From contig JBAMJV010001328.1 of the NCBI GenBank assembly GCA_037951105.1, positions 248,001 through 312,000 of the forward strand: a DNA stretch of 64,000 bases, in the 5' to 3' direction. Origin of the DNA: Echinarachnius parma. Taxonomy: Eukaryota; Echinodermata; Echinoidea; Clypeasteroida; Echinarachniidae. A program made the position numbers and the translations under genes. This document shows, one piece after another, positions 3,801 to 63,302 of the stretch (position 1 is its first letter; each line of letters begins with the position of its first letter). The notes below the pieces were generated by a model. The model saw only the letters and a program-made list of their open reading frames with translations, was not told the DNA's origin and ran no database searches.

Positions 3801-6128
3801 AGTTCTGATATAATAATTTTTTTAAATTTTATAACGTGGTCATTTTGCTGGTCCCAACTCGTTATATTTTTGTATGTTTTGTTGAACTGTTGGTCTAACA
3901 AGATATCTTTATTAAAGAAGGTTATATCTTGATCCCAAGGACCTTGTTATAATGAGGTTCCACTGCAATGTTGCAACATTAGAGAGAGGGGTGAAAATAG
4001 GTCTAGCCGAAACCTGTTAATTATAACAAAAATAAAAGGATGCGTTTCTTTTTTTGTTTTCATATAAAAATATCTAGTCATGTAGAGTGGCATGTTCATA
4101 AAGAACTTGAACAAACAGCAATTTAATAGCACTGAGTGGATCGAAGGGAGCCTGTATATAGAAGGATAAACTAAAGAGTGCACAATAAATGGAAACGACA
4201 TAGATATCACAATGATTTGTGACAGAATCAACATATTTTCTTTATTCTGAATTTTTAATCTGGAACCTTGACGAAATGAAAATGTGACTGTGTATTTAAG
4301 TATATTTGATATTAATATTTCTCTTACAATTCCCACATTTAAGTACCTATACAAGAATGTGATAACATTTTGAGCTCATTTTTTATAACAACCATTTTCA
4401 ATTCATTATTTCTGTTTATTTCGAATATTAGCATTCATGTAATGTTTCATAATTAAATTATCATCAAACGTAATTGATACATCTGAGTCATCTTTAATGA
4501 TCTTTACCTAAAAAATAACAGTTATATGAATGAAGTAATGTAAATGTAAGTAGTACTACTACTACATTGTATTAGTAGGGAGTTCGGTGACTTTTGGATT
4601 TGTTGAAGGAACCTCAACAAACTTAATATCATTGGAAAGCTTGTAAAGTGAGAAAAATAATGGTGCTTAAATCAACTTATTAGCTTCAATATTAGTGGAG
4701 ATATTCCAATTTTAGAGGTAGAAGGTACAAAGTTTGGTTCTGCCAGTTTCAGCCGATGGACGGTAACTATGCTCTGTGCGTGCCCCAGCGCTATAAATAG
4801 AAAACGCATGCCTCAACATGGCTAAAAATATCAAAATCAGTACGTGGGCAATTTGTTTACATTGGATGATCGCAGCTTAGCGCTATTACTACTCCCATAG
4901 TAATGTATTTCAATGTGTAGAGAAATCAACACACTTTCATAAAATACTACTTTTCCATACCTTTTTCAGATTCCTTCCTCCAGTTTTAAACGATTTTTCG
5001 TCGATTTTTTGTGCTGAAAATCGATGCAAATATGTCAGCAAAACAATCCTTCAAAAAAATCAATTTGCAAGGTGAAAATTCCAAAAAATTCCGGCGAATT
5101 TGGTGTCATTCGAAAGATCAGATTCTGCTCTACATGACAATGGCCTCAAATTCAACGTAGAGGGAGTTTACGAACCCCTACTCTGGCATGGAAGTTGGGA
5201 AAATTTATGCACTGTGGTAGCAAAATGAGGTTTTCAAGTGCAGTCGCTACCGCGACTACCGCGAAGTCTCCTAACTCACTGCGCATTCAGATTGTTTTTT
5301 CGGGTGTTAAAACATCGATTTAGGAACAACTAATGCTATATCCAGATCAAGGAAGGATTAAGCTTCAAGAGGATACCAATTTCATGGTAAAATATTGAAA
5401 AATATGAATTCTACCCTAGGTTTTTTGTAGCAAAGTTTTGCGTGTTAGCAGATACAAATGCGTGATTGCGGTATTCGGTCGTTCTCCCTAGTATTAGTAA
5501 TGGAAATGAAAGAAGAAGAGTCACAAGTCACAACATGCAAAATTGATCAAAAACTGAAAAAGGCAAAATAAAAAAAATTAAAAATGTATAATAAATGCAA
5601 CTTGCCCAGCAGTGATGCATTCATTCCCTTGTAAAAGGCAAGCAGTCCCTCCTCTTTTAGGATCAAACGGAACGCATGAATAATGCCTTTATATCTCCTC
5701 CTCCTAACATCTGTTGGCTGAACAATCAGCCGTGTTTTCACCATGTCCGTGGGATAGGTCACAATCGTCGCCGTCATGCCGCCGAGCGCCCCGGCCAACA
5801 TTGCCTTCGTTGCGGTCAGGCGGCCCGTGTCGTCTGCTAGCATCACTTTGAATCTGGAGAAGGCAAGAAACTGCAATGCACTGAACGGGCTCAATCTCAG
5901 ACAGCCGATGAGGTTTCCTTTCCAAAATGCCCTGACACCATGCGACGTGTAGACGTTAGCAAATGATTTAAAAACCCCCTGATGTAGCGTCTCTTTGGTG
6001 CCGACTTGCATTCGTATTTTGACCACGTCCATCGGAGAAGTGAGCGTTCGGCTCACCAGACCTGCGGCGGCTCCACATGTCAAAATCTGCACGTAAGTCA
6101 GGCGGCTGTCTCTTCCACCTCTCACCAT
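814..6128 (-). CDS. SLC25A43: SLC25A43-type mitochondrial carrier, 4 exons, 332 aa
   Basis: Minus-strand exons at 6128-5606, 3767-3595, 1991-1857 and 981-814 sum to 999 nt with consistent phases (1, 0, 0). The protein has the three mitochondrial-carrier repeats, with signature motifs PMDVVK (about residues 32-37), PTDMVK (126-131) and PFDTIR (223-228). Family members are six-helix inner-membrane transporters; the substrate of SLC25A43 is not established. Orthology to SLC25A43 rather than another SLC25 rests on the third-repeat stretch GGGVDVKFHG and on the C-terminal tail with ENGYTISP and GVDQSMKP, which match my memory of the human protein (341 aa). The start is chosen for its strong Kozak context (ACCACCATGG). 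Intron 1 needs a GC donor to keep frame. Introns hold MITEs and a decayed copy of exon 4. The gene is divergent from UFSP2. Confidence 0.93.
1121..1168 (-). pseudogene. Decayed partial copy of SLC25A43 exon 4
   Basis: About 48 bp in intron 3 match the middle of exon 4 (the part encoding FEFCKKLFLYENGYT) at roughly 85 percent identity by eye. The copy lies about 150 bp upstream of exon 4 in transcript direction. It has no complete reading frame or splice sites and is probably an exon-duplication remnant. Confidence 0.7.
2125..2530. repeat. Diverged copies of the GGCCCGA / CTCGAAATTAAC hAT-like family
   Basis: Several phrases such as GGTGGCCCGAG and GCTAATTTCAAGC recur in this part of SLC25A43 intron 2. 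They match the interior and ends of the better preserved copy at 10934-12188. Another diverged copy lies at about 1255-1400. Confidence 0.5.
4576..5490. mobile_element. Non-autonomous DNA transposon, 915 bp, in SLC25A43 intron 1
   Basis: The ends are TAGGGAG and CTCCCTA, flanked by the direct repeat GTATTAG at 4569-4575 and 5491-5497. No transposase ORF is visible. The 7 bp duplication (possibly 8 with one mismatch) and short inverted ends fit a hAT-type deletion derivative. Family assignment is tentative. Confidence 0.6.
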
Positions 6129-6524
6129 GGTGGTTCAGAATGAGATAAAATACCAGGAATATGATAATGTCTCGACTCCAACATCAGGTTATTAATGGGC
6201 AGAACATATCATGGTTCAATGTTTGACATTCTGCTAGATTAAAAGTGGAATAATGTTGGTTTTGTCCTCACGTTTCACAACTTCGAACTACCCCTTTCGT
6301 CTTGACAGACTTTGCCAATTTCAGTTTAGTTCGACAAGTGTATGTAAACTCCTGAAAATTAAAGATTCGAATCTCGATAATGATACATTTTATATTCTAT
6401 TAACAGTCCATATAATGTATGTTACACACAAATAAATTGAGTAGAAAACAAGCCCAGTGTAACAAAATCATCATAGTAAAATTTTGCTAAAATTTCGAAC
6501 GAGACTAAACTACGTCACATCAAA
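6129..6524. promoter_or_regulatory. Shared divergent promoter region of SLC25A43 and UFSP2
   Basis: Only 396 bp separate the two start codons, so one region must drive both genes unless unseen 5' exons exist. A CRE-like half-site TACGTCA lies at 6511-6517. The UFSP2 start codon sits inside AAAATGGCTGC, which resembles a YY1 site, a common position for YY1 in TATA-less housekeeping promoters. No TATA box is obvious. Motif function is inferred. Confidence 0.6.
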
Positions 6525-43818: not shown

Positions 43819-44250
43819 AAAAGCAATATATATATTACGAAACATATTCAAAGTTTACGAGTTGCAAATATATCCAGTTTTAGATAGATATAAATATCAT
43901 TATCACGCGAATGGTCGATATGATCCGTAAGTCTAAAATTGTCAACGCGAGGTGCCATGTATTCGTAGTGTAATAGTCGTAAGGTTCAGTAATTAGAATT
44001 TCGCTGCGCATGGTACTCAAAACATAGTACTCAAAACCGTGTACACGCATCGGAGTCATCTTTCGACCACGGGCCCACGGGCCGCGTGTTTATTTGCATA
44101 GTTTGACCGCTGACCCATTGAAGTATGTCCATGTTAGTGGTATAAGTTCAATGTGCTGACCACACAATTCTATAATCGCGCCCACATGTGGTAAGATGTA
44201 TTAAGCCAGCCGCGTATAGCTAAGACGCTGTGGGTGAGGGGGAGGGGGAG

Positions 44251-44960
44251 CTGAAAAGATGGGGGGGGGGGGGGGGGGTATCTATACTAATTTATTATGC
44301 AATGCATGTATATTTATTCCCTTCAAAGGTATATATCATCGGGTTTCTCAGATATGAATTGTTTAGGGGACACGACGCGTTATGTGTCATGCAGGCAATT
44401 GGAGACATGGGAGGTGGGGGTGGGGGCAGCGACGAGTGCATGTTGTATTTGATTAGTTTGGCATGCATACCATTTCATCATATTTTCATAATTATTATTG
44501 TTAATTGGAAAAAAGGGAGAAGGTGATCACCTACTAACTTCGCAATAAAAGAGAAAACAACGAAAACGCATCGAGTGCATGTTGTATTTGATTTGCCATG
44601 CATGGAGGGGGAGCTGAAAAGATGGGGGGGGGGGGGGTATCTATACTAATTTATTATGCAATGCATGTATATTTATTCCCTTCAAAGGTATATATCATCG
44701 GGTTTCTCAGATATGAATTGTTTAGGGGACACGACGCGTTATGTGTCATGCAGGCAATTGGAGACATGGGAGGTGGGGGTGGGGGCAGCGACGAGTGCAT
44801 GTTGTATTTGATTAGTTTGGCATGCATACCATTTCATCATATTTTCATAATTATTATTGTTAATTGGAAAAAAGGGAGAAGGTGATCACCTACTAACTTC
44901 GCAATAAAAGAGAAAACAACGAAAACGCATCGAGTGCATGTTGTATTTGATTTGCCATGC
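44251..44960. repeat. Recent tandem duplication, period about 359-362 bp
   Basis: Two copies, 44251-44601 and 44613-44960, appear identical except for the length of an internal G-run (18 against 15). Confidence 0.9.
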
Positions 44961-46444: not shown

Positions 46445-47036
46445 ATAGGTTTTCCCATTCATTTTAACACTTTTGTCATTCAATTTCATTAATTCGTCAT
46501 TCAAATTCGTCCCGAGGAACCACCAGAGCGGAAATCCCAACTTCAATTTCGTCTTTCGTCAATCAATTTAACACAATCACCACACAATTTAGTCATTAGG
46601 CACACATTTTCGTCAATTGCAAATCAAATTCGTCGGTCACAGTTGCTAAACACATAAAAGCGAAAGCAATTTCGTCAATTGGCAACCAATTTCGTCAAAA
46701 CTCCATTCAAATTCGTCCTATGTATTTAGGAGGTAATTTTCTGTTATAAATTGTCTTGATGTAATTGTTAAATTGTAACATTAATTATATAGGGGGTAAC
46801 ACACACACACACACCCACACTCACACACATCCACACACACACACATACGTTTAAAACATATCTTCATTCAATTATATATTTTTTGTATAGAAATATATGT
46901 AATGTTGTTATGTTTTATTTTATATATTTTGTAAGAGATTTGAAGTAAATCAAACTGGACTTTTTATTTATTTTGTTTCATCTTGATTTGGAAATAAAAC
47001 AAACAAACAAACAAAGAAACAAACACACATCACACA

Positions 47037-47685: not shown

Positions 47686-48230
47686 TCAAATCAGTCAAAT
47701 GTATGTACACACATTGTTTTAAAAAAAAAGTCAAACAAACACACTAACACACACATATATATTTCTACCCTGAACAGGAATGTTTCTACTCATGCTGAAT
47801 ATAATACACATTTGGCTATTTCATAAAAACTGATGGCTAAAAAAGAAAATATAGGATTTCAATTGGCACAAAAAGAACATGCAACAAGATAGGACCATGC
47901 AAACCAGCAAGTTAACTGCCATCACAGTGTAATCTTCTATAAGATGCATGTATCATATCGTCGTTTGAGAAAGAGAAGGGCGCAAGGTTAGTTTTAATTC
48001 TTTTGAGATAATCACGTTTTAAGTTTATGAGCCCTGTAGAAACAGAGTTTAGTTCACTTTTATCTTTGATCAATAATCCCAAACTTGGAAATAACATTTC
48101 TTTTTTTTTATCAGCAAATTTGGCATCACAAAGAGAAGGCAGGGACCTACAAGATGGTATGCAGAACTCAATTTAGCACCAATTCAACTGAATGCCCTTC
48201 TCATTCTCCAACCACGCTGCTAGTCAGACA

Positions 48231-48928
48231 TCAGTACGCATGACTACAGGGCATGGCGTCATAGTTATACATGGCTTCCAGTAGCTTTCTATCGTACCCC
48301 GCGCTCTGCCTCACCATCTCGACATGCTCGAGGGCGCCATTCGTCATTCCCTGGCCGGAGTCGCAGCGAGACTTCATCGGCGACGCCCCACCTTGCATGA
48401 CTGGCTGTGAGGGCGCACAATTTGTCACAATACTTCCCTGAGGTACCCCTACTGATTGTCTGTTTCCTACACCATTCTGTTTTAAGGGCATGAACGGACT
48501 TCCTACTGGTACGCCTTCTCCGTCATCCATGCAGCTATTTTTAACGTCCATGTCCTCATCGGCCACTGGTGCATAATGGGAATCCTTCATATTTACACCA
48601 CCATTGTCATGGTAGCCATTACCACGGCAACCATTGCCCTGATGATGCCCATTACTTTGTCCTCCAGCATTACTGGCATCATTTGAATGCCTCCGCTTCC
48701 TGGAAAAGAGTATGGAGGTCGCATAGTCCCTTAGTAGCTCAACACTATTTGGACAATTTGGCACATGTTCAATGGTACCGTTAGAAAGCATATGTTCAAC
48801 ACCTGTGGTACCGTTCGTCGGAAGGGTGCTTTGCGGTGCACTGCCGTTCATGTGACCATTGAGTGCTGCAGAAGAAATGACCATTCCATTACGGGCATTG
48901 TGAGAAAGATTTGGCATCAAAGCATGGT
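48231..48928 (-). CDS. Alternative terminal exon G2 (distal copy)
   Basis: A GCACAG acceptor, phase 1, starts DHALMPNLSHNARNG. The tail is rich in Asn-Gly (NGHHQGNG, NGYHDNGG), has SRKRRHSNDASN as a possible nuclear signal, and ends GYDRKLLEAMYNYDAMPCSH plus two residues. The end resembles the RYDSAVLGTMHLHH end of human ANKRD10. About 233 codons. Paired with G1 by a segmental duplication that includes flanking sequence. Confidence 0.8.
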
Positions 48929-51900
48929 CTGTGCAAAAGAACAACAACAAATACATGACAAAGGGTACCAAAGGAGGAAAGTATACAAACTTAATACACA
49001 TACATGTATCATGCAATTGGTTCTATTAAAGGCAGTTTTGTATTTTTACAAAATGGACACAAAATGCAAAACTGACAAGATGTGATTGAACATATTTTCA
49101 GAGGAATATGATGGATGGTTTGAATTCAAGGTTCACAACAAAACACAAACAGAATGGACGTACAAAGTTCAATAAACAAACCATGTGACACATACATGAA
49201 CAAAAGAAGTACGTTTACAAGATAACACAGCAAACATGTTCATAACAAGATAATCTTAAATTATCACCAATCTTTAAAAGCGCTTGTTCCAGCAAAAGTT
49301 GTTCCAAGTTAAAAACTATAATTGGTGCAAGAATAAACATTTCATATATTATTGGAGTTGCTATAGATAATGACCACTGTCCTGCTGAGGAAGTCGATTT
49401 GAATTGGTGCCCATACTTGAACCATACTTAGTGGCCAACTGTCTATAGCAGCCAACCTGCCTATAGTGGCCATCAAAAGTGATTCCCTATCTATACTGCA
49501 GTATGAAATTGATGGAAATTTCTACAAGTATGACCACTAAGTCATAGTGCCTTGCATTAAGGCAGAGCCTGGTGGGGCACGTAGCATTCCATCCAGTAAC
49601 TTCAAGAACCTCTAGTGTTGTTCACAGCATCAGGGATTCTCGGAGAAGTCATGTTTTCTGCGCTATCAACGCGAAGAGTCTCAGTAATTTTAAGCGATAC
49701 TTCTGATCAAGGATGAATCATCAAACCAGTATATATATATAAAGTTAGCGCTGCAGAGACAGAAGTTTCTACATGTATTGGCCACTGAGTGCCTTGCATT
49801 TAGGCAGAGCCTGCTGAGGCACGTAGCATTCCATCCAGTAATCTGAAGCACCTCTAGGGTTGTTTGGGGCATCAGGGATTCTTGGAGAAGTCATGTTTTC
49901 TGCGCTATCAATGCAGAGAGTCTCAGTAATTTTAAGTTCGGCATTACAAAGAGAAGGCTGGGACCTATGGTATGCATCAACAAGTTTAGAAAAATATGAT
50001 TCCAGAAAAAAAATATATAATTGGAAAACGCATCACCATTCTAAAGCATGCGTTCATGGGTCTGCATGTACGAAGACTACCTTTGTCGAGAGCGAACGAA
50101 TCATCCGGGATTCTATTGTCTCCAAACGTACGCGTGAATAGAATTGGCATACTCGCAAACGTTTGGCGCGTAGGGAACCATGAAATAATAGTGGTTCCGT
50201 AAGTGGTGGTTATTAATTGCATAGTTTATGAATTACACAACACTTTGCACAATGTTGGGTATCTATTTGATATCACAAAACGGTACCAAAACATATAATT
50301 ATGTGTTGTTCTTTGCCTGGTGGTCCCCTTTAATTTAAGCCATAAGTCCCAAAATCAAATTAATGCCCTTCTCATTCTCACCGGACGATAAAATGGCTAG
50401 CAGTGATAATTCTCCGTCCATGATGACCATGCTGAATATGCCTGACTACAGGGCATGGCGTCATAGTTATACATGGCTTCCAGCAGCTTGTTATCGTACC
50501 CCGTGCTCTGCCTCACCATCTCGACATGCTCGAGGGCGCCATTCGTCATTCCCTGGCTAGAGTCGCAGCGAGACTTCATCGGCAACGCCCCACCTTGCAT
50601 GACTGGCTGTGAGGGTGCACCATTTGTCACCATACTTCCCTGAGGTACCCCTACTGATTGTCCGTTTCCAACACCATTCTGTATTAAGGGCATGAACTGA
50701 CTTCCTACTGGTATTCCTTCGCCGTCATCCATGCGGCTATTTTTAACGTCCATGTCCTCATCGGCCACCGGTGCATAATGGGAATCCTTAAGATTGACAC
50801 CACTGTTGTCATGGTAGCCATTACCATGGTAACCATTGCCCTGATGATGCCCATTACTTTGTCCTCCAGCATTACTGGCATCATTTGAATGCCGCCGCTT
50901 CCTGGAAAAGGCTGGTTGGCAACATGGTATGGAGGTCGCATAGTCCCTTAGTAGCTCAACACTAATTGGATAATTTGGCACATGTTCAATGGTACCGTTA
51001 GAAAGCATATGTTCAACACTTGTGGTACCGTTCGTCGGAAGGGTGCTTTGTGGTGCACTGCCGTTCGTGTGACCATTGAGTGCTGCAGAAGAAATGACCA
51101 TTCCATTACGGGCATTGTGAGAAAGATTTGGCATCAAAGCATAGTCTGTGCAAAAGAACAACAACAAATACATGACAAAGGGTAACCAAAGGGGGAAAGT
51201 ATACAAACTGAATACACATATCATGCAATTGGTTCTATTAAAGGCAGTTCACAAAATGCAAAACTGACAAGAAGTGATTCAACATATTTCCAGAAGAATA
51301 TGATGGATGGTTTGAATTCAAGGTACACAACAAAACAAACACAAAATGGACGTACAAAGTTCAATAAACAAACCATGTGACACATACATGAACAAAAAAA
51401 GTACATTTACAAGATAACACAGCAAACATGTTCATAACAAGATAATCTTAAATTATCACCAATCTACTTCATGACAATCATTTAAAAGTGCTTGCTCCAG
51501 CAAAAGTTGTTCAAGTTAAAAACTCTATGATTGGTGCTCCATACAAGAATAAACATTTCATATATTATTGGAGTTTCTATAGATAAAGACCACTTTAGTG
51601 CCTTGTATTTTGTCCTGCTGAGGAAGTCAATTTGAATTTGTATGGTGCCCATATATCGAGCCTATCTTAGTGGCCAACTGTCTATACCAGCCAACATGCC
51701 TATAGTGGCCATCAAAAGTGATTCCCTATCTATAACGGCCACCTGTCTAGAGTGGCCACTATACTTGTTTCCCTTAATAGGTGGTTACTCTACCCAAGTT
51801 TGACTCAAGTTAATACTGCAGTATGAAATTGATGGAAATTTCTACAAGTAATGACCACTGAGTGAGTGCCTTGCATTTTGGCACAGCCTGCTGAGGCAGG

Positions 51901-54900
51901 TAGCATTCCGTTCAGTAATCTGTTGTTCACGGCATCAGGGATTCTTGAAGAAGTCTTTTTTTCTGCGCTATTAACACAGAGAGTCTCTGAAATTTAAGAT
52001 GCTTCTTTTCAAGGATGAATCATTGAACCAGTTAAAGTTAACACGGCAGAGACGGAAGTTTCTATAAGTAATGACCACTAAGTGCCTTGCATTTAGGTAC
52101 AGCCTGCTGTGGGGCGTAACACTCCATCCAGTAATCTCTAGAACCTCCATGGTTGTTTGGGGCATCACAGATTCTCGAAGAGGTCATGTTTTCTGCGCTA
52201 CCGATGAACAGAGGCTCCTCACAATTGTTGACTCCTGTGCAAGCATCGCTAATTCCAGAAGACGGTACACGTACAATGGCTGAAGAATCTCTTCCGTTCT
52301 CTAGTTCATCTGTAGAAGTAGAACCCAGTTAAAGCTTGCATCAGTCACTGTTGTAACACAGGGTTATCTCTCATCAGAATAAGTGTAAATGTAGCCCCAG
52401 GGCTATTGAAATGTCTGTTACACTATGAAACATCAATGTCCATGTTCACATATAATTGTTCAGTCTACAACTTTAAAAAGCTTGCACAAAATCAGAAGTG
52501 TCATGACAATGCTCGGGTTTGAACATATTAAATACTATTCAAGTTTAAGTGGTTGCAGTCACATATAATGTAGCAAGCAGTATTTAATGTAGGTCCACTT
52601 CATTCATCGTTCCTCATATTTATTTAATTTACAAAAGAATTTTTTAAAATACAATATCGGTGGGTTACATTACATGCATGAACTGTAATTTTTCACTTTT
52701 CATACTTGAAAATATTGCACAAACTATCAGCCTAAAATGTATTTTCATAAATTAGCTAGAAATAGAAGCTTTCACAACATTCATGCACTTTATTTAACTT
52801 CTGAATACACTGTTTATGAGGTACATGAGCTGGCATGATTGTTTGTTATAAATATGGCAGGTAAATTCATACATATTACATATACAATATTTATTTACAT
52901 ATATTCAGCCTCAAATATATCAACTTTTTGCTCTGCTTGCTCATAGATCCATTACATAAAAAGACTGCACAAAACGAGCAAAAAGAGTTTAAAAACTGTA
53001 ATCTGCAATTTTACAGACAATGCAACAGGTATTGTTCATTTGATGTGAATATACAACAGTGCAATATAATTCACTGTCATTGTGATATCATGCTGCATAA
53101 AAACTTGTTTAGTGATGAACATACATGTAGCTGGTTTTTGCATTGTAAATGCATGCACTGTCTCAATAATCCCTTTTGAATTGCAGTGCACATCACATTC
53201 CCACACTTCTTTAGTACATGTGTTAACACTTGTCTTATCACAGATAAGAATAATACAGAACTCAGGACTCACAAGTTTATAAATAACACTAACAAAATGA
53301 ATTTCAATTTACACAATGAAATGCAAAGTAGTCATTTCCACAGCCACACTTGTACATTTATGTACGTGATGCCAAACTAAATTATTTTCATTACAATTGA
53401 AGGAAAAAAAATTGCGCTAGTGCTAGTTCGACTAGAATATACACTGTGGTAGTCAAATGTTTGCATTTAAACCTCACATTGCAAGATACACAATATACAT
53501 ATATATATGCTCTATACAAAAAATGATCATAACACGGCACTGGGTTTTAGCTAGAGATTTGCTGGACCATCAAATGCAGAATGGCTGGTATTTCCAGTGA
53601 TCTTCTTTTGGGATTTTCTTTGACTGTGGCAAGACAGCCACAGAGGGTAGCATTCCATCAGACTCCGTTGCTATGGCAGCAAAGCCCACATCAGCATCTA
53701 TTAGCTCCTCAAGATCCTCTTTAACTTGACTTCCCTCATCCGTGGGGTCCAAGAGTGTTTGAACCTCGTTGTCCGTTTGTGACGCTGGGTTTTGTTGCGA
53801 TCCTTGGTCTAGCAGGGGCCCAGATGAGAATGATTGTCGTTTTGATAAACAGAACAGTGATAGAACAGAGGTGAATGGAACGCAAGCTTGAAAGTCAAAG
53901 CTCTAGGGCTAATAATGTCTGCTCTCAGAATTTCCTGGCAAAAACTTACAAATCATAAAATGGTAATCAGGTGAAAAGTTTTTTGTTAAACAAATCTGAG
54001 GGCATCACATTGTTTTTATTCAGGAATTCTGCTCCTTTCTAGTATTAATCGTTGACATCTTTCTAGGTAATTATCTAAATTAATTCATCACACATTTGCA
54101 CAACATTTTTAATAAATATTCATGTTTGAAGTAAATTATGGTACTTTTAGATACTTCTAAAGATTAAAATTCTGTTAAACAAATAAAAGAAATTAAAATC
54201 CACACTTAAATCATATTTCTTATTTTTTTTCTTCAATTACTCACAATGAACAAGAAGCAATCATTATTATCTTTACCATAGCAAGCAATATAAATACATA
54301 ATCTGTAATTTACATTATGGGAGCTAAATAGTATTCTAGACATAAATCTGACATGAAAATGCTAAAAACATGATACGCTATTAGCGTATCATGTTTTTAC
54401 CATCCTTTCAAACCATCCATCGCGTCTCTAGAAGATACACAAAGCGTCTGTTTTTCTACATGACTTAAAATGTACATTGATTCCTACTGTTATTTGAGGT
54501 TGTTAGTTAGTGTTAGATTAGTATTTGTGATGTTTTAAAGTTTAAACGTTTCACATTATCCACTGTTTATACGTGTTGATTTGTTACCATCCTGTTAGCA
54601 ACCACTGGAATTGGGACAGAAGGCTTGTAGCCATATTTATTCAGTTAACTTTTTTACAAGCCCTGGCCCCTGGCATACCAGTGGTTGCAATTTCTTCACT
54701 TTTTTACACTTCTCTTGTATACTTGATTTACTGAATAAAATAATAATAATAATAATAATAACAAACAACGATCTGAGGAAGGAATGAGGAACTATACAAA
54801 ACACTTGTTGAATTGTTCTTTGTTTATGTGTGTGGGGGCGAGGCGAGTCCAATGATAGTTACAGAATCATGTTTCGGTTCTGGTTTATGAAATTCACTCC

Positions 54901-57900
54901 AAGAAAAATGCATAAAACATATCAGAAATACACTTTCAAGAGACAAATCAAATGAGCTGCAAGTTCAAATTTTACCTCTTTTAAGAATTATATTTCATAT
55001 TTATATTTAAAAGAGGTTTAACTGTGATGAGATACCTACCATTTTCAAATGGCTCTCTATGGTTTCGGCCACAAAATTAGCTTAATCTTGATTTCACTCT
55101 CCAGATGCAAACAAACCAGGGGAAAAATACACGGGGGCGGCGGGCGAATTTGCCCCCGAAATGCCCAAAAGAGCCCCCGAAAAAAAAAAAGAAGAGCCCC
55201 CGAAAAAAAAATTTAAAATAATAATACAATTTTGGTAATTTTTTGGGGGGGGATTTTGGGGGATTTTGTTATTGGATCGTGATCAAATGCCGATCAGATG
55301 ATCACTTACAGCATTAGAGCTTAATAGTAGCCCCTGAAATTCGAAAAAGAGCCCCAGAAATTTGTAGCCTCCGAGATGATAAAAGTAGCCCCCGAAAGTT
55401 GGAAAAGTAGCCCCGAAAAGGAGCCCCCGAAATAAAAATATTAATTTTTTCTTGTCTAACCTTGGTAAAATGTAAGCTAAAGAAGGACTATCCTTCCCCA
55501 AATCTGTACACTTACAACAATGCTAACAATTACATTTTTGGCCTTTTGGCCTTTTGGCCCAGTCGGGCAAACAAAACAAGATTTTCACATTCTTGTGGCC
55601 AGAAACCCGTTTCTGGTGGCCCCAAACACAGAAAAACATAAGAAAATTCTGTTATATTTGGTTGCCTTTACGAGCCTGTGGAATTTAGGATCAATTAAAT
55701 TTGGTAGCCAGAAACTAGTTTTTGTAGTGGCCCTAGGCCAGCAGGGGGTGTATTTTGACAAGGATTTTAACTTTAATTTGATTGTATCTACCTCACTAAA
55801 ATATTTGTTAGGCTAGCAAATCAGTATTCATTAAGCAGTTTCAGAATACCGCTTTGGCTAAAACTATTTTAGTGATCAATGTCGATGCAATCAATTTGAG
55901 CTTAAATCGTTTTCAGAATACACTCCCAGGCCAATTACGAGCACAGCTAACTGTTTTGAGATACCTACCATCATCTACCCTGGCTCTCTTAGCCAGATCC
56001 ATCACCATTCCATCTCCCTCCTCCTCTGGGGTGAGTCTCTTCCGGCTCCCAGCCTCGCCCCCCGAAGACGCAGACACCCCATGACCAGCATGGGTCACAT
56101 GACCCGTTGTCATGTGATTCTGAGCGTCGCCCCCGGCACGGAAATAATCCACGCACTGCCCCTGCTGGTTCTGCACGGCTAGGTCGGGCACGGTGGCACC
56201 AGATGTGCTGCAAATACTGGAGACACAAAATATTGAGACACAAAATATTATTATTTCTGCATTTTTTAAAACATAATTGAAACAGACAATTGTGCAAATT
56301 AACTTTTCCAAGCATTTGGGAGAAGGAATATTTGTTGTGCTTTGGGTACATGGCTTTAAAGGTTAATTTCAAGGCTAAATACTTCAATCATTTTATCAAA
56401 TGCGCTAACAAAAATTACCACAACAGCAAATGACAAAGAAACCTTTCTACCCCCTGCTACCTTGTAATACCCTTTACATCCCAATACAGATCCAGAATTC
56501 ATACACTTTTTTCAAGTCAAATTCCAGGACTTTCCATGACCATTACTGCAAGAATTCCATGACTTTCACTATGTTTATGTAAACAACATTCTATGACTTC
56601 TTTCGCAACTTTTTATACTAAAATAAGGTCAAAAGTATTGATTTGTATTTTAGGAATAAGGAAATGCAAGATAAATTGGAATTCCACGACTTTCCATGAC
56701 CCATATCCTTTCACAATTTCCCCTGACATTCAAGACTTTGAAAAACAACGAGTGAAATTCCATGACTTTCCAGGTTTTTCAGGCCCTGTGTGAACCCTGT
56801 GATCAGAAGCTTCAGATTTACAAGAAACCTTGCCGTCCAAACTTACAAAAGAACAAACTTACTGAACCAGGTCTTAAATTAGGACTCCCCCATGTTGGTG
56901 CCCTGGTGCCAATGCCAACCAGAAATTTAATTTGGCCACTAGCAACTGTTGTACTGGCCACCAACAATTTCAACAATACAACACATTTGGGCCACCTGAA
57001 AGAAAAGTTGAAGGGAGAGCCCAGCCAATTCACCACTGGAACCTGGAACATGTAATAAGTCCATAGATATTATGTTATCTCATAGTCAATGGGTTAAGTA
57101 AGTTAATTCACCTGAAGTCAGCACCATGTTCCCTGAGAATATGAAGACATTCCACACTGCCACACCTCACTGCCTTGTGCGATGCAGTCTCACCCATGTG
57201 ATCCTATGAAGTTAAAGCCAGAAGAAAAAACAAAAATGAGTTAAAATAATCATGTGGATCTGAACTGAAAATAGTTAAAATTATCACACAGTTGTGGGTT
57301 TATTGCTTAAAGGTAGTTTGGATTCTTAAATCAGACATGCAGTGCTATCTTGCAAACACCTTGCACACAGTGCATTATAACCATTGGCTCAGTGTTATGC
57401 AGTGCGCACAAACTAGCCTCGTTTAAAATGGCCACCCACATTGTAGAATCCCCATGGTTGATAATTTGTTTAATAAATGCTGAATAAATGATTTAAGCCT
57501 ATTATTCTCACAGAGTCAGAGTAGATATATTCAATTTCAATACTTAATCTTGCTTTTGCATAAACATATCAGAATGGAAAATAGTATGGTTAAAAAATGT
57601 ATAATATACTAGGTAGAAAATTGAATTAATTTAACAACTCTCAGCTTTTTTGTTTCTATTTTCATTAATTTAGCGAAGTATCCTAAATAGTAGGTAAAAT
57701 GTATTCTTAGGTGGTTAAAATTCAATAACTTCCTGGACAAGAAAAGTGTATTTACCTGTGCATTGACGCTGATCCCGTTCCGACACAACCACGCTAGACA
57801 GGCTGCCTGTCCCTCCAGGGAAGCTACATGAGCGAGAGTAAGACCAGCTCCTTGGGTTGCTATGTCACACGGCAAGCCAGCTTGCAGCAATAGCTGCAGG

Positions 57901-59606
57901 CACTCCACCTGGTTGGAGGGGAAATAAAATAGCCCTTTTAACATTTAACTAAGTAGTACGTTATACTGGTATTACACCAAAAAGCACAATGAACTATTTA
58001 GAGCATTTATGAGCTTTGTACAGAAAGCTACATGATGCACGGTTTGACCTGCTCCTTGGGTCGCTATGTCACACGGCAAGCCATCTTGCAGCAGTGGCTG
58101 CAGACACTCAACGTCTCAACCTGGTTTGAAACTTTGAATTTACAATGCAAGACAGTAAGACACAAGCTAAAAGGTAAAAGGGAGAAAAAAACACCTTTTA
58201 TTGTGTCTTACATTATAAAATACTAATACTGTCACGCAACCAAATAAATACTTTTTTTTTCACGAGGGCGATTTTGAAAATTTTGAGGAAAAAAAATGCC
58301 CTTGTGAAATTATTCACGAGGGTATTTTGGGGCTCACGGGGGCTCTTTTTTTTTTTACATCGTTTTCACTGCTCAAGGGTCTAATAAATGATTATCATGA
58401 TGTGATCTATCTGATTATGCCATGTTTGGTACGTTTCTGGCGCTTCGCGGCTTCGCCCCCGTGCCGTGGCTCACGGGGGCGATTTTAAAGGTATCGGGGG
58501 CGAATCGCCCTTTGCCCCCGTGTATTTTTTTGGTTGCTGTCACGTCACTGCACTGCGAGACCACATAAAAGTAAACAGTGAAAAGAATTTGTGCAGCAAT
58601 ATGTCTGCAAGTCTTATTGGAAGATTTTGCAATTTTCTTTTTTTCTGCAGTTTTGTGATTTTATTTGATGAAAAAAAGTTGTAAACAGAGTTGACTAAAT
58701 TAATCATGTTTAATGTAAATACAAATTACAATAACAAATTAATTATCTCGAACACACAATCTCATTTCCTTTTCACAAGCACATGTATGCTAGCCAAAAC
58801 ATTAGTTACACAAGAACAAAAACTTCCGCAAACAAATTAAGAAAAAAAACAATAGAAATGTACACATTCAATAGAATTATGAAGCGCCTCTATAAAGACG
58901 AGTCAACAAAGGCACAAATCATAACTATTTTTACTCACATCAATCATCAATCATCAATTAAAAAAACCAATAGAAATGTACACATTCAATAGAATTATGA
59001 AGCGCCCTCTATTAAGACGAGTCAACAAAGGCACAAATCATAACTATTTTTACTCACATCAATCATCAATCATCAATCATCATTTCAGACATCAGATTCA
59101 CACCCCTCCCCAATATTTTGCTTGCAGAATTATGAAGTGCCCTCTAGTTTAAATTATAGTTGATAATAAAATAAAATAAAAGTAAAACAGTACAAAAACA
59201 ATAATAAGTGTAAAAAGACAAGTCAACAAACTACAAAGTCAAACAAAGACAAAGGCACAAATCAGAACTATGTTTACTCATAACGTCTCACTCGAACATC
59301 AACCATCAGTTCAACCGTTCAGACATCAGCTTGACATCCCTCCCCAACCCTCGAACACATAAATGACAAAGAATCTTCAATGTTTACCTTTCCGTTATGT
59401 GCTGCCCAGTGCGCCGGTGTCCAGCCAAACAGCGGGTCCTGCGCTACAGCATCGCACACCGACACCACAGCGTCCCCGAGCAGCCCGGACAAAGCGGCTA
59501 GGTCCCCGTCTCGACAGGCGCGATGCAGAGGAAATGATTGCAGGAGATCCTCCGCTCCCCATTTTTTGCCGGCAAAGTTGGCAGAGTTGCTGTCGGTTTC
59601 CATCAT
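48231..59606 (-). CDS. ANKRD10: ANKRD10-type ankyrin repeat gene with alternative terminal exons
   Basis: Shared exons A 59606-59388, B 57908-57756, C 57203-57112 and D 56207-55969 total 703 nt (234 codons plus one base). They encode FPLHRACRDGDLAAL, GWTPAHWAAHNGK, ECLQLLLQAGL, LTLAHVASLEGQAACLAWL and GETASHKAVRCGSVECLHIL, about four ankyrin repeats closely matching human ANKRD10. A basic SRKRLTPEEE and KRARVDD follow, probably a nuclear signal. An in-frame stop lies just upstream of the double ATG start. Exon D ends in phase 1, and four downstream exons with AG acceptors continue in frame to a stop: E, F1, G1, G2 (313, 316, 483 and 466 aa). G tails resemble the human C-terminus. ANKRD10 has no settled biochemical function; regulation of transcription is suspected. 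Confidence 0.88.
49545..49690 (-). pseudogene. Decayed copy of terminal exon F (F2b)
   Basis: Reads SAENMTSPRIPDAVNNTRGS and then an in-frame stop; the rest of the exon F match continues after it. No 5' part or acceptor of exon F. Confidence 0.7.
49769..49930 (-). CDS. Partial but open copy of terminal exon F (F2a)
   Basis: The frame is open to a stop at 49769-49771 and reads SAENMTSPRIPDAPNN then DYWMECYVPQQALPKCKALS, close to F1. The 5' third of F1 is missing and is replaced by sequence related to the start of exon G. An AG in AGCGCAG before AAAACATG would join exon D in phase, but its use is speculative. Confidence 0.5.
   Translation of the reverse strand: MTETLCIDSAENMTSPRIPDAPNNPRGASDYWMECYVPQQALPKCKALSGQYM
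50397..51145 (-). CDS. Alternative terminal exon G1 (proximal copy)
   Basis: Same structure as G2, with a GCACAG acceptor and phase 1, starting DYALMPNLSHNARNG. It is about 250 codons, with a short extra segment (PCCQPA) before SRKRRHSNDASN and a different last dozen residues after MPCS. Differences from G2 are mostly single substitutions with the frame preserved, which suggests both copies are kept by selection or the duplication is young. Confidence 0.82.
51845..51995 (-). pseudogene. Decayed copy of terminal exon F (F1b)
   Basis: The SSRIPDAVNN-like segment is recognisable, then a deletion shifts the frame within the DYWMEC region. The 5' part and acceptor of exon F are missing. Confidence 0.7.
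52062..52309 (-). CDS. Alternative terminal exon F1
   Basis: Acceptor TTCTACTTCTACAG. From exon D phase 1 it reads DELENGRDSSAIVRVPSSG and, further on, AENMTSSRICDAPNNHGGS and RDYWMECYAPQQAVPKCKAL, then a stop at 52062-52064: 82 codons without interruption. It is unlike exons E and G apart from the acidic first residue. No known domain recognised. Three partial relatives lie downstream. Confidence 0.7.
53570..53808 (-). CDS. Alternative terminal exon E
   Basis: Acceptor CCCCTGCTAG. It continues exon D in phase as DQGSQQNPASQTDNEVQTL, then an acidic run including EGSQVKEDLEELIDADVGFA, and ends KEDHWKYQPFCI with a stop at 53570-53572. Nearest to exon D of the four tails. Composition is acidic and Gln-rich, like a transactivation or interaction segment, but the role is unknown. 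Confidence 0.72.
54390..54765 (+). repeat. SINE or LINE 3' end with (AAT)n tail
   Basis: Contains CAACCACTGGAATTGGGACA and TATTCAGTTAACTTTTT and ends in AATAATAAT. The same sequence occurs in inverse orientation at about 63640-64000. The microsatellite tail and dispersed copies fit a non-LTR retroelement end or SINE. Confidence 0.65.
55017..55070 (-). pseudogene. Decayed copy of the exon D donor region
   Basis: AACTGTGATGAGATACCTACCAT... followed by TGGCTCTCT parallels the exon D 3' edge and donor at about 55950-55995. Short and diverged. Confidence 0.45.
55120..55440. repeat. GGGGGC / GCCCCCGAAA repeat copies
   Basis: AAAATACACGGGGGC resembles one end of the hAT-type MITE at 34344-34644, followed by many GCCCCCGAAA units. 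Confidence 0.5.
58043..58122 (-). pseudogene. Decayed copy of ANKRD10-type exon B
   Basis: CTCCTTGGGTCGCTATGTCA, ACGGCAAGCC and CTTGCAGCAGTGGCTGCAG match the 5' part of exon B at high identity, about 135 bp upstream of it in transcript direction. The second half is missing. Confidence 0.8.
58237..58536. mobile_element. hAT-type MITE, second copy, 8-bp target duplication
   Basis: Same family as 34344-34644. CAACC... and ...GGTTG ends are flanked by CTGTCACG at 58229-58236 and 58537-58544. Confidence 0.85.
58851..59345. repeat. Imperfect tandem repeat, unit about 119 bp, in intron 1
   Basis: AATAGAAATGTACACATTCA...GACGAGTCAACAAAGGCAC occurs twice in succession (58851, 58970). A more diverged third unit ends just before exon A. 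Confidence 0.75.
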
Positions 59607-61758: not shown

Positions 61759-63302
61759 CAGGCGCGCCGGAAGCAGTTTTGGATTGGGGGGGCAAAACCC
61801 TAAGGGGGCTCACGAGTTATGTCTTTAGGGGCTCATGCCCAACCGCACTCACAGGCAGTGGCGTAGCGACGAGGGGGGGGGGGGGGGGGCAGAGGCGATG
61901 CGGAGCATCGTCCAGCGGCAATTTTTTTTTTTGCTATTTTGAACCCCCCTGAGTGATTTTTTTTCACCTTTTTTCACTTTCGTCCACGAGCCGCGAAGCG
62001 GCGATTTTTTTTTGCTATTTTGAATCCCCGTAAGTGATTTTTGTTCACCCTTTTTTCACTTTCGTCCACGAGCCGCGAAGCGGCGATTTTTTTTGCTATT
62101 TTGAACCCCCGTAAGTGAATTCTTGTCACTTTTTTTTAAACTTTCGTCCACGAGCCGTAAATTATTTTCGCTATTTTGAACCCCAGTAGGTGATTTTTTT
62201 TCACTTTTTGTTTCACTTTTTTCACTGATACATTTTCACTTGGCAGCCCAAGGGGGGTGGCGTTAAACCCCCTAACCCCCCCCCCCCCCCCCCCCGTAGA
62301 TCCGCCACTGGGGGGGGGGGGGGGGGGAGAGGGCACCCCCAATAATTTGGGAAAAACAATAGAAAACATAAGGGGACATTTAAGGTGTGCCCCCCCCCCC
62401 CCCAATAATTTTGCGTAGACCACGCTACGCCACTGCTCAAAGGGTTGCCATCTTCGAGTCAGAGGTGACATTGCGAGGATAAAGCGACTAATTAGCACGA
62501 GGGAGCAAAGTAACTGAGCGGTGTGTCCCCCTCCCCCCTCCCCCCCCCCCCCCCCTCCCATGGTAGGGAGCTTTTGCATTTTGGGACTTGCAATCGGGTG
62601 CATAAAGACATGATCCAACAACATAGCGTACAGCCATAAATGAGCCCCGAGGGAGCGAAGCGACCGAGGGCTGGGGCCGAGCCAGAGGGGGTGGGTTTGG
62701 GAGGGGGTATCCCCCTCCCACGGGGAAGATTTTACATTTATATACTTAAAATGGTGCAATCTGGTGCATAAAACATAAACAATATGCCACATTTGTATGA
62801 TCCAACATCATAGCTTACAGCCAAAAATGAGTCCCGAGGGAGCGAAGCGACCGAGGGCTGGGGCAGAGCCAGACGGTGAGGGTTTGGGAGGGGGCATCCC
62901 TCTCCCACGGGGAAGATTTTGCATTTATTTACATGAAACAGTTCAATTTGGTGCACGTCAAACAAATAGCCAGAGCAATAACAGTCGACACATGAACTAC
63001 GTGGACCGATACAGAAAAACCCACCGCAGACGGTACCATACCCAAGTTACCCACAAACTGAGATGATTTATTTGCGCGCGAAGCGCGCAGCGAAAACTTT
63101 AAATGGATGTATAACTTAGATTCTAAATGTTATAATTAACAAGTATTGGCTGATACATACCATGTTTTATTTTCCTTTTTCTTATTTATTTTTTTTTTTT
63201 GAGGGGGGGGGGCTTTTTGGGGGGGCAAAAACGCGTTTTGCCCCCCCACTTTTTGGATTGGGGGGGCGGCCGCCCCCCCTGCCCCCCCACTTCCGGCGCC
63301 TA
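61759..63302. mobile_element. Composite TIR element, 1,544 bp, 10-bp target duplication
   Basis: The ends (C/T)AGGCGC...CGGAAG and CTTCCGGCGCCTA are inverted and flanked by TGGCTTCGAC at 61749-61758 and 63303-63312. A 9-10 bp duplication fits Mutator-like elements. Inside are a CAGTGGCG-type insertion (about 61856-62435) and a duplicated block of about 183 bp (62638-62790, 62823-62960) with GAGGGAGCGAAGCGACCGAG. No transposase frame. Confidence 0.65.

Follow-up and report, generated by a model that had tools for sequence, protein, structure and literature searches.

Candidate alternative 3' terminal exons at an ANKRD10-like ankyrin gene of Echinarachnius parma

The closest described counterpart of the locus reported here is human ANKRD10, which is spliced into two isoforms, ANKRD10-1 and ANKRD10-2, in a balance set by RBPMS; the short form binds MYC, while no such binding was seen for the long form (PMC11882939). 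Changes in Ankrd10 splicing have also been described in the hippocampus of offspring after prenatal BPA, where they are small and of the alternative 5' and intron-retention types, the available part of that report making no mention of tails (PMC12337383).

Arrays of alternative 3' ends are known from other genes. In the oyster, exon 10 of alternative oxidase, a terminal coding exon that includes part of the 3' UTR, occurs in tandem and yields two related protein ends, and one variant takes both copies via an alternative 3' splice site (PMC5589949). In the Drosophila genes pip and PGRP-LC, tandem duplication has produced a series of alternative 3' ends that follow one common head; the pip units are homologous to one another, and the choice in PGRP-LC reportedly uses competing RNA structures (PMC9013439). 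Lastly, Drosophila mod(mdg4) joins its common exons to one of more than 30 alternative 3' exons, and its mRNAs are all reportedly trans-spliced from independently promoted 3' exons (PMC12692577).

Here we describe an ANKRD10-like gene of the echinoid Echinarachnius parma. It lies within a window of 64,000 nucleotides (GenBank assembly GCA_037951105.1, contig JBAMJV010001328.1, positions 248,001 to 312,000), and all positions below are those of the window. We consider it moderately probable that the ankyrin head of this gene, exons A–D, is spliced to alternative 3' exons, namely a proximal exon E and a distal exon G that is duplicated in tandem (G1 and G2), with F1 as a less certain third tail. 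The phase-1 donor of exon D, four phase-matched frames, their acceptors and the repeat structure can be read directly from the DNA, and it is from these that we infer exon usage.

The same kind of gene with long and short splice products is found in human, where these have different partners. Human ANKRD10, however, has two variants only, and the available part of the report states no separate terminal exon for the short form and mentions no duplicated tail exons (PMC11882939). With the oyster gene the locus shares a terminal coding exon in tandem, but there the two tails are the only ones. With pip and PGRP-LC it shares the array behind a common head, but whereas the pip units are homologous, E, F and G show no similarity to each other. 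Finally, it resembles mod(mdg4) in its layout, but here the tails are confined to 8 kb of the same strand, such that cis-splicing would suffice. The original prediction held that no tail array had been described at ANKRD10. Since the human two-isoform switch has been published (PMC11882939), variation among ANKRD10 products as such is already known. The array of several exons may be new, as no report of a terminal-exon array at ANKRD10 was found in the open-access literature among the matches listed. The general surprise is modest, because systems of this kind are known and alternative tails are a familiar source of variants in animal genes.

The common head and its relation to ANKRD10

The four common exons lie on the minus strand between 59606 and 55969 and code for 237 residues with ankyrin repeats. 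Exon A (59388–59606) starts the head and is open from the first ATG to the donor AAG/GTAAAC, where the slash marks the exon end. Exons B (57756–57908; acceptor score 10.1, donor CAG/GTAAAT) and C (57112–57203; acceptor score 7.0, donor CAG/GTGAAT) continue the repeats, and exon D (55969–56216; acceptor score 8.9, donor ATG/GTAGGT), the last common exon, contains a basic RKR...KRAR stretch. Its 3' boundary (...GATGATG/GTAGGT) is in phase 1. The donors used by the gene in A–D score 6.8–8.8; all splice-site scores given here are based on generic donor and acceptor frequencies that are not species-trained. A partial copy of exon B, comprising bases 1–88 of its 153 at 84% identity, is found on the same strand at 58025–58112, 116 bases upstream of exon B, and the similarity stops short of the donor.

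In Pfam, the head matches Ank_2 (4.1e-21) and Ank_4 (1.3e-20), showing that an N-terminal ankyrin block is present. A comparison with human ANKRD10, the one ankyrin family considered, serves as a lead only; here the head has a match of 37% across 224 residues that takes in the basic stretch following the repeats. ANKRD10 is not among the best 60 of 399 matches of the head to solved structures, all 60 of which are ankyrin-repeat proteins, designed ankyrins included, and which do not help to identify the gene. Against the same human ANKRD10 sequence, again as a lead only, the C-terminal end of G1 gives a 25-residue match to the human C-terminus with an E-value of 0.04, and the best E-values for exons E and F1 are 3.0 and 0.21. 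This suggests, as far as such a lead can be relied on, that G is the ancestral tail, with G1 likely the canonical ANKRD10-type one, and that E and F1 were either gained in this lineage or lost elsewhere.

The gene is probably single-copy, because its tails were found at this locus only and because, among the listed matches to the head (the best 150 of 2864 candidates scored), those outside the locus are 28–36% identical. In the 1.2 Gb genome, a protein query with E matched this locus alone, a DNA query with F1 found F sequence at four places, all at this locus and only F1 itself complete, and queries with G2 DNA and G1 protein found G at two places only, both here. No retrocopies that would reveal exon joining were seen in the same 1.2 Gb with E protein, F1 DNA, and G DNA and protein, or among the listed matches to the head. 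A search for relatives of G1 in viral contigs returned two stretches that fitted a pattern, neither of which was confirmed.

Several side observations concern the surroundings of the gene. The genome is rich in very long open ankyrin-repeat frames, those listed reaching up to 4052 codons (for example on contigs C2974, C1971 and C13866). Within the window, two adjacent copies of a stretch with runs of G lie at 44224–44885, both containing one and the same open frame, about 85 residues long. A 195-codon open frame at 5547–6134 on the minus strand resembles a mitochondrial carrier of the SLC25 type and marks a probable SLC25 carrier gene.

Candidate tail exons in the phase of exon D

According to the original prediction, exon D ends in phase 1, and four downstream exons (E, F1, G1 and G2), each preceded by an AG, are open in that phase for 79 to 249 codons. 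Joining the exons confirmed this: attached to A–D, each of the four is open up to one stop of its own. The tails of E, F1, G1 and G2 comprise 79, 82, 249 and 232 codons, and the predicted proteins 316, 319, 486 and 469 amino acids, respectively. All four downstream exons thereby have acceptors matching the phase of one common donor, the arrangement of an alternative-last-exon gene. The off-phase frames at these acceptors are short, with 35 and 23 codons for E, 2 and 0 for F1, and 3 and 12 for G1 and G2. Just as predicted, the E, F and G tails show no sequence similarity to one another.

All four exons lie on the minus strand. Exon E (53570–53808), the candidate proximal terminal exon, would encode an acidic tail (pI 4.05; among its 79 residues, 16 are acidic and 5 basic). 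Its acceptor, which scores 5.3, is the weakest of the seven scored and competes with a rival phase-1 AG at 53886 (score 4.6, 105 codons). F1 (52062–52309) would provide an 82-residue tail behind an acceptor scoring 9.6. G1 (50397–51145) codes for the long, 249-residue tail, of which Asn, Gly, His and Ser make up 36%, and G2 (48231–48928) for a second, 232-residue copy; the acceptors of both score 9.0, compared with 7.0–10.1 for exons B–D.

We scanned the 8,968 bases behind D for phase-1 acceptors followed by open frames and compared them with 115,000 bases of control from both strands of the same window, in which matches were counted without locating them and may thus include real exons. In the 115 kb control, seven acceptors of at least 5 are followed by 78 or more open codons, corresponding to 0.55 expected in the 9 kb region; the expectation rises to 1.25 for acceptors of at least 3 (16 in the control) and falls to 0.16 for those of at least 9 (two in the control). 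Since no frame of at least 200 codons stands behind an acceptor anywhere in the 115 kb control, G1 and G2 far exceed what chance would produce and can safely be taken as coding exons. The acceptor and frame of F1 probably exceed chance as well. E is not beyond chance by these two properties alone, and its support comes from its codon score and a peak in G+C content.

With the head and G1 as the training set for codon log-odds, E scores 0.111 and F1 0.121, and 1 of the 81 open stretches in the control scores as high as either. When the 114 stretches of the whole window are ranked by their best 79-codon window, F1 comes 10th and E 12th, with a frame that is a shadow of exon A between them. Above both rank the gene's own frames D, G1, G2 and A, along with two shadows of exon A in other frames. 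The remaining three that rank higher come from outside the locus, two of them overlapping at about 5.5–6.1 kb in the probable SLC25 carrier gene and the third, which has long single-base runs, at 62136–62807. The G+C content is 47.7% in E, compared with 34.8% before and 30.9% behind it, and 46.8% in F1, the other adjoining non-coding stretches having 35.6% and 36.8%.

The weak acceptor of E, the ease with which a similar acceptor and frame arise by chance and the positions of F1 and E in this ranking are points against our reading. They bear on an alternative that we regard as unlikely, in which only G is used, G1 and G2 provide a single kind of tail, and E and F1 are either chance open frames with passable acceptors or dead exons. 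An E-like combination expected 0.55–1.25 times per 9 kb would fit this, as would the decayed units in the F array and the missing AATAAA and ATTAAA between F1 and G1 described below, but the codon scores and G+C peaks of both exons, the strong acceptor of F1 and the constraint on its partial copy argue that E and F1 are more than chance frames. Neither E nor F1 matches Pfam at an E-value of 1 or better, which would likewise fit; the same, however, is true of G1 and G2, and Pfam therefore cannot separate E and F1 from G.

Repeats of F and G sequence

Three further F units accompany F1 on the minus strand. F1b (51841–51994; 73% identical to F1 over the matched part) is degraded, its frame being split into two, and has an in-phase AG that opens 59 codons behind an acceptor scoring only 2.7. 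F2a (49769–49924) is 83% identical to F1 without any indel and keeps an open frame, but it aligns to bases 93–248 of the 248 in F1, such that the 5' part of the exon is missing, and it has no adequate phase-1 acceptor. F2b (49522–49665; 79% identical to F1) is again degraded, its frame being broken by stops. Between F1 and F2a, dN/dS is 0.27 (NG86) or 0.37 (maximum likelihood) over the 44 last codons of F2a; judged by these ratios, the partial copy is under constraint. F2a was also considered as a fifth tail and rejected: of its six in-phase AGs, three are situated upstream of position 50032, where the open frame starts, and the others leave 43, 27 and 24 codons.

G1 and G2 are 93% identical including one 15-base gap, with 36 of 694 aligned bases differing. 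Their dN/dS ratio of 0.49, 0.60 or 0.61, depending on which of three methods is applied to the 232 codons, indicates that they are under only mild constraint. About 350 bases behind G1 (approximately 49989–50352, minus strand) have no counterpart behind G2, and short matching sequences are found on both flanks of this segment.

The original prediction, in which F and G had been duplicated together, holds for the 3' part of F only, because the 5' part is missing from the second F copy, which also has no good phase-1 acceptor. Furthermore, the duplicated segments differ in their divergence. In the intron before G1 and G2, 31 of 566 bases differ, and in the F-derived part 60 of 376 (F versus intron, Fisher P=2e-7). 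The divergence declines as a slope and not as a step, amounting to 17, 17, 10, 8, 9, 4 and 4% in successive 150-base windows from F towards G and to 3–7% inside G. This unevenness makes a duplication of a single age unlikely, and suggests either that G and the introns were homogenized later or that the F units are not true counterparts, owing to turnover within the array.

A divergence of about 5%, which is a plausible allelic distance in some marine invertebrates, is found alike in the G exon and the adjoining intron, as would be seen if G1 and G2 were haplotypes or an assembly error in a polymorphic genome that in fact has one G exon only. We judge this very improbable: the F units next to them are 16% divergent and unlike in structure, matching sequence resumes behind both copies once the roughly 350 extra bases behind G1 have been passed, and G is found at just these two places in the assembly.

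Putative transcript ends and tail choice

The probable 3' UTR of E (52600–53569, minus strand) contains AATAAA signals starting at 52895, 52794 and 52624. These three compare with 1.84 expected in 53569–52310, which is no significant excess (P=0.28), and two further AATAAA lie inside the D–E intron. ATTAAA is found at 50334 behind G1, 63 nt past the stop, and at 47998 behind G2. Between F1 and G1 there is neither AATAAA nor ATTAAA, and only rarer variants such as AATATA at 51566 and AATACA at 51609 occur. A distal cluster of AATAAA (46914–46972, minus strand; starts at 46972, 46968 and 46919) is a candidate for the poly(A) site at which the G isoforms would end. From 52623 to 46973, between the E-side sites and this cluster, the minus strand is free of AATAAA over 5.65 kb, where 8.3 would be expected; it is the longest such gap on the strand, but it is suggestive only, because another of 5.62 kb occurs elsewhere on the same strand.

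A donor-like site, CCG/GTGAGA (50376–50384, minus strand), is located 15 nt past the stop of G1, and an intron using it would begin at 50381. Its score of 10.2 exceeds the 6.8–8.8 of the donors used by the gene, and sites like it are found at 0.1 per kb in the control. G1 could therefore be non-terminal, and G1 and G2 could share the distal AATAAA cluster.

A more far-reaching version of this idea, in which neither F1 nor G1 is terminal, appears rather unlikely to us. Transcripts would run on to the distal poly(A) site, F1 would act as a poison or cassette exon, and an intron of the 3' UTR would start at 50381 behind G1, the last being too close to the stop to trigger decay. F1 has a weak internal donor at 52222, 87 nt from the start of the exon, that would keep phase 1; sites of this strength (score 5.7), however, occur 2.5 times per kb. 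The strength and rarity of CCG/GTGAGA are in line with such an arrangement, but other donor-like sites scoring 9.8–9.95 are present within the coding parts of G1 (50593 and 50516) and G2 (48391 and 48314), which means that high donor scores arise easily in G exons, and the place in G2 that matches 50381 has no donor-like site above 5. Likewise, the lack of AATAAA from F1 to 46973 would be accounted for, but the gap was chosen post hoc, and the ATTAAA behind G1 and the rarer poly(A) variants between F1 and G1 offer both exons potential ends of their own.

Turning to the splicing signals, raw counts in 55968–46973 amount to 8 TGCATG (5.3 expected), 16 paired CAC (24.6 expected) and 70 TTCT (54 expected). 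An intronic element at 54407–54421 is complementary at 15 of 15 bases to 51302–51316 before G1 and to 49110–49124 before G2. This could represent a docking and selector pairing, a layout whose proposed origin is the duplication of one stem arm along with its exon (PMC6071210). It is a weak lead only, because shuffled sequences reach the pairing score in 11 and 13 of 300 cases, which is borderline, and because F1 has no docking-type pairing, its 300 upstream bases being matched or beaten by 260 of 300 shuffles. The element abuts a 22-nt inverted repeat in the D–E intron (54359–54403, minus strand; 95% complementary, 1-nt loop). This hairpin is perhaps the remnant of a mobile element, to which the adjoining 54407–54421 element may also belong.

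If, as we favour, E and G are the proximal and distal tails of one gene, G would be its ordinary long tail, reached past E and F1 and ending either near 46970, in the distal AATAAA cluster, or at a nearer ATTAAA. E would be a proximal last exon, and cleavage at one of the AATAAA signals 0.67–0.95 kb behind it would produce a short, acidic-tailed protein that lacks the Asn/Gly/Ser/His-rich G tail. The choice between the two would then depend on which comes first, splicing to G or cleavage behind E; such a race governs tail choice at other alternative-last-exon genes. G would have been duplicated in tandem beside a small F array, its copies and adjoining introns being later homogenized or duplicated again, so that G1 and G2 would be near-equivalent choices, and F1 would be a third, less certain tail. 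As to the array originally predicted, its exon anatomy is correct, and the simplest way to read it is as alternative last exons; the prediction has to be qualified in that the exons are unequally supported, with E limited by its acceptor and F1 by its poly(A) signals, and in that G1 is perhaps not terminal.

The locus might also be understood more ambitiously, as one ANKRD10 head with three unrelated tails, the acidic E, F and the N/G/S/H-rich G, in a cis array whose distal exons are kept alike by gene conversion and in which the element at about 54.4 kb decides between G1 and G2 by pairing with either selector. We regard this combination as decidedly improbable. If true, a nuclear ankyrin protein would change its partner with the choice of tail, much as the RBPMS-driven choice of isoform does for human ANKRD10 and MYC.

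Given the contrast in divergence between the F units (about 16%) and G with its intron (about 5%), the locus could also serve as a small test case of how duplicated terminal exons are homogenized. Should the tails indeed be used, one head would give rise to proteins with very different ends, and a species that presents this choice in the form of separate exons would be well suited for a clean study of the function of the tails and the age of the switch.
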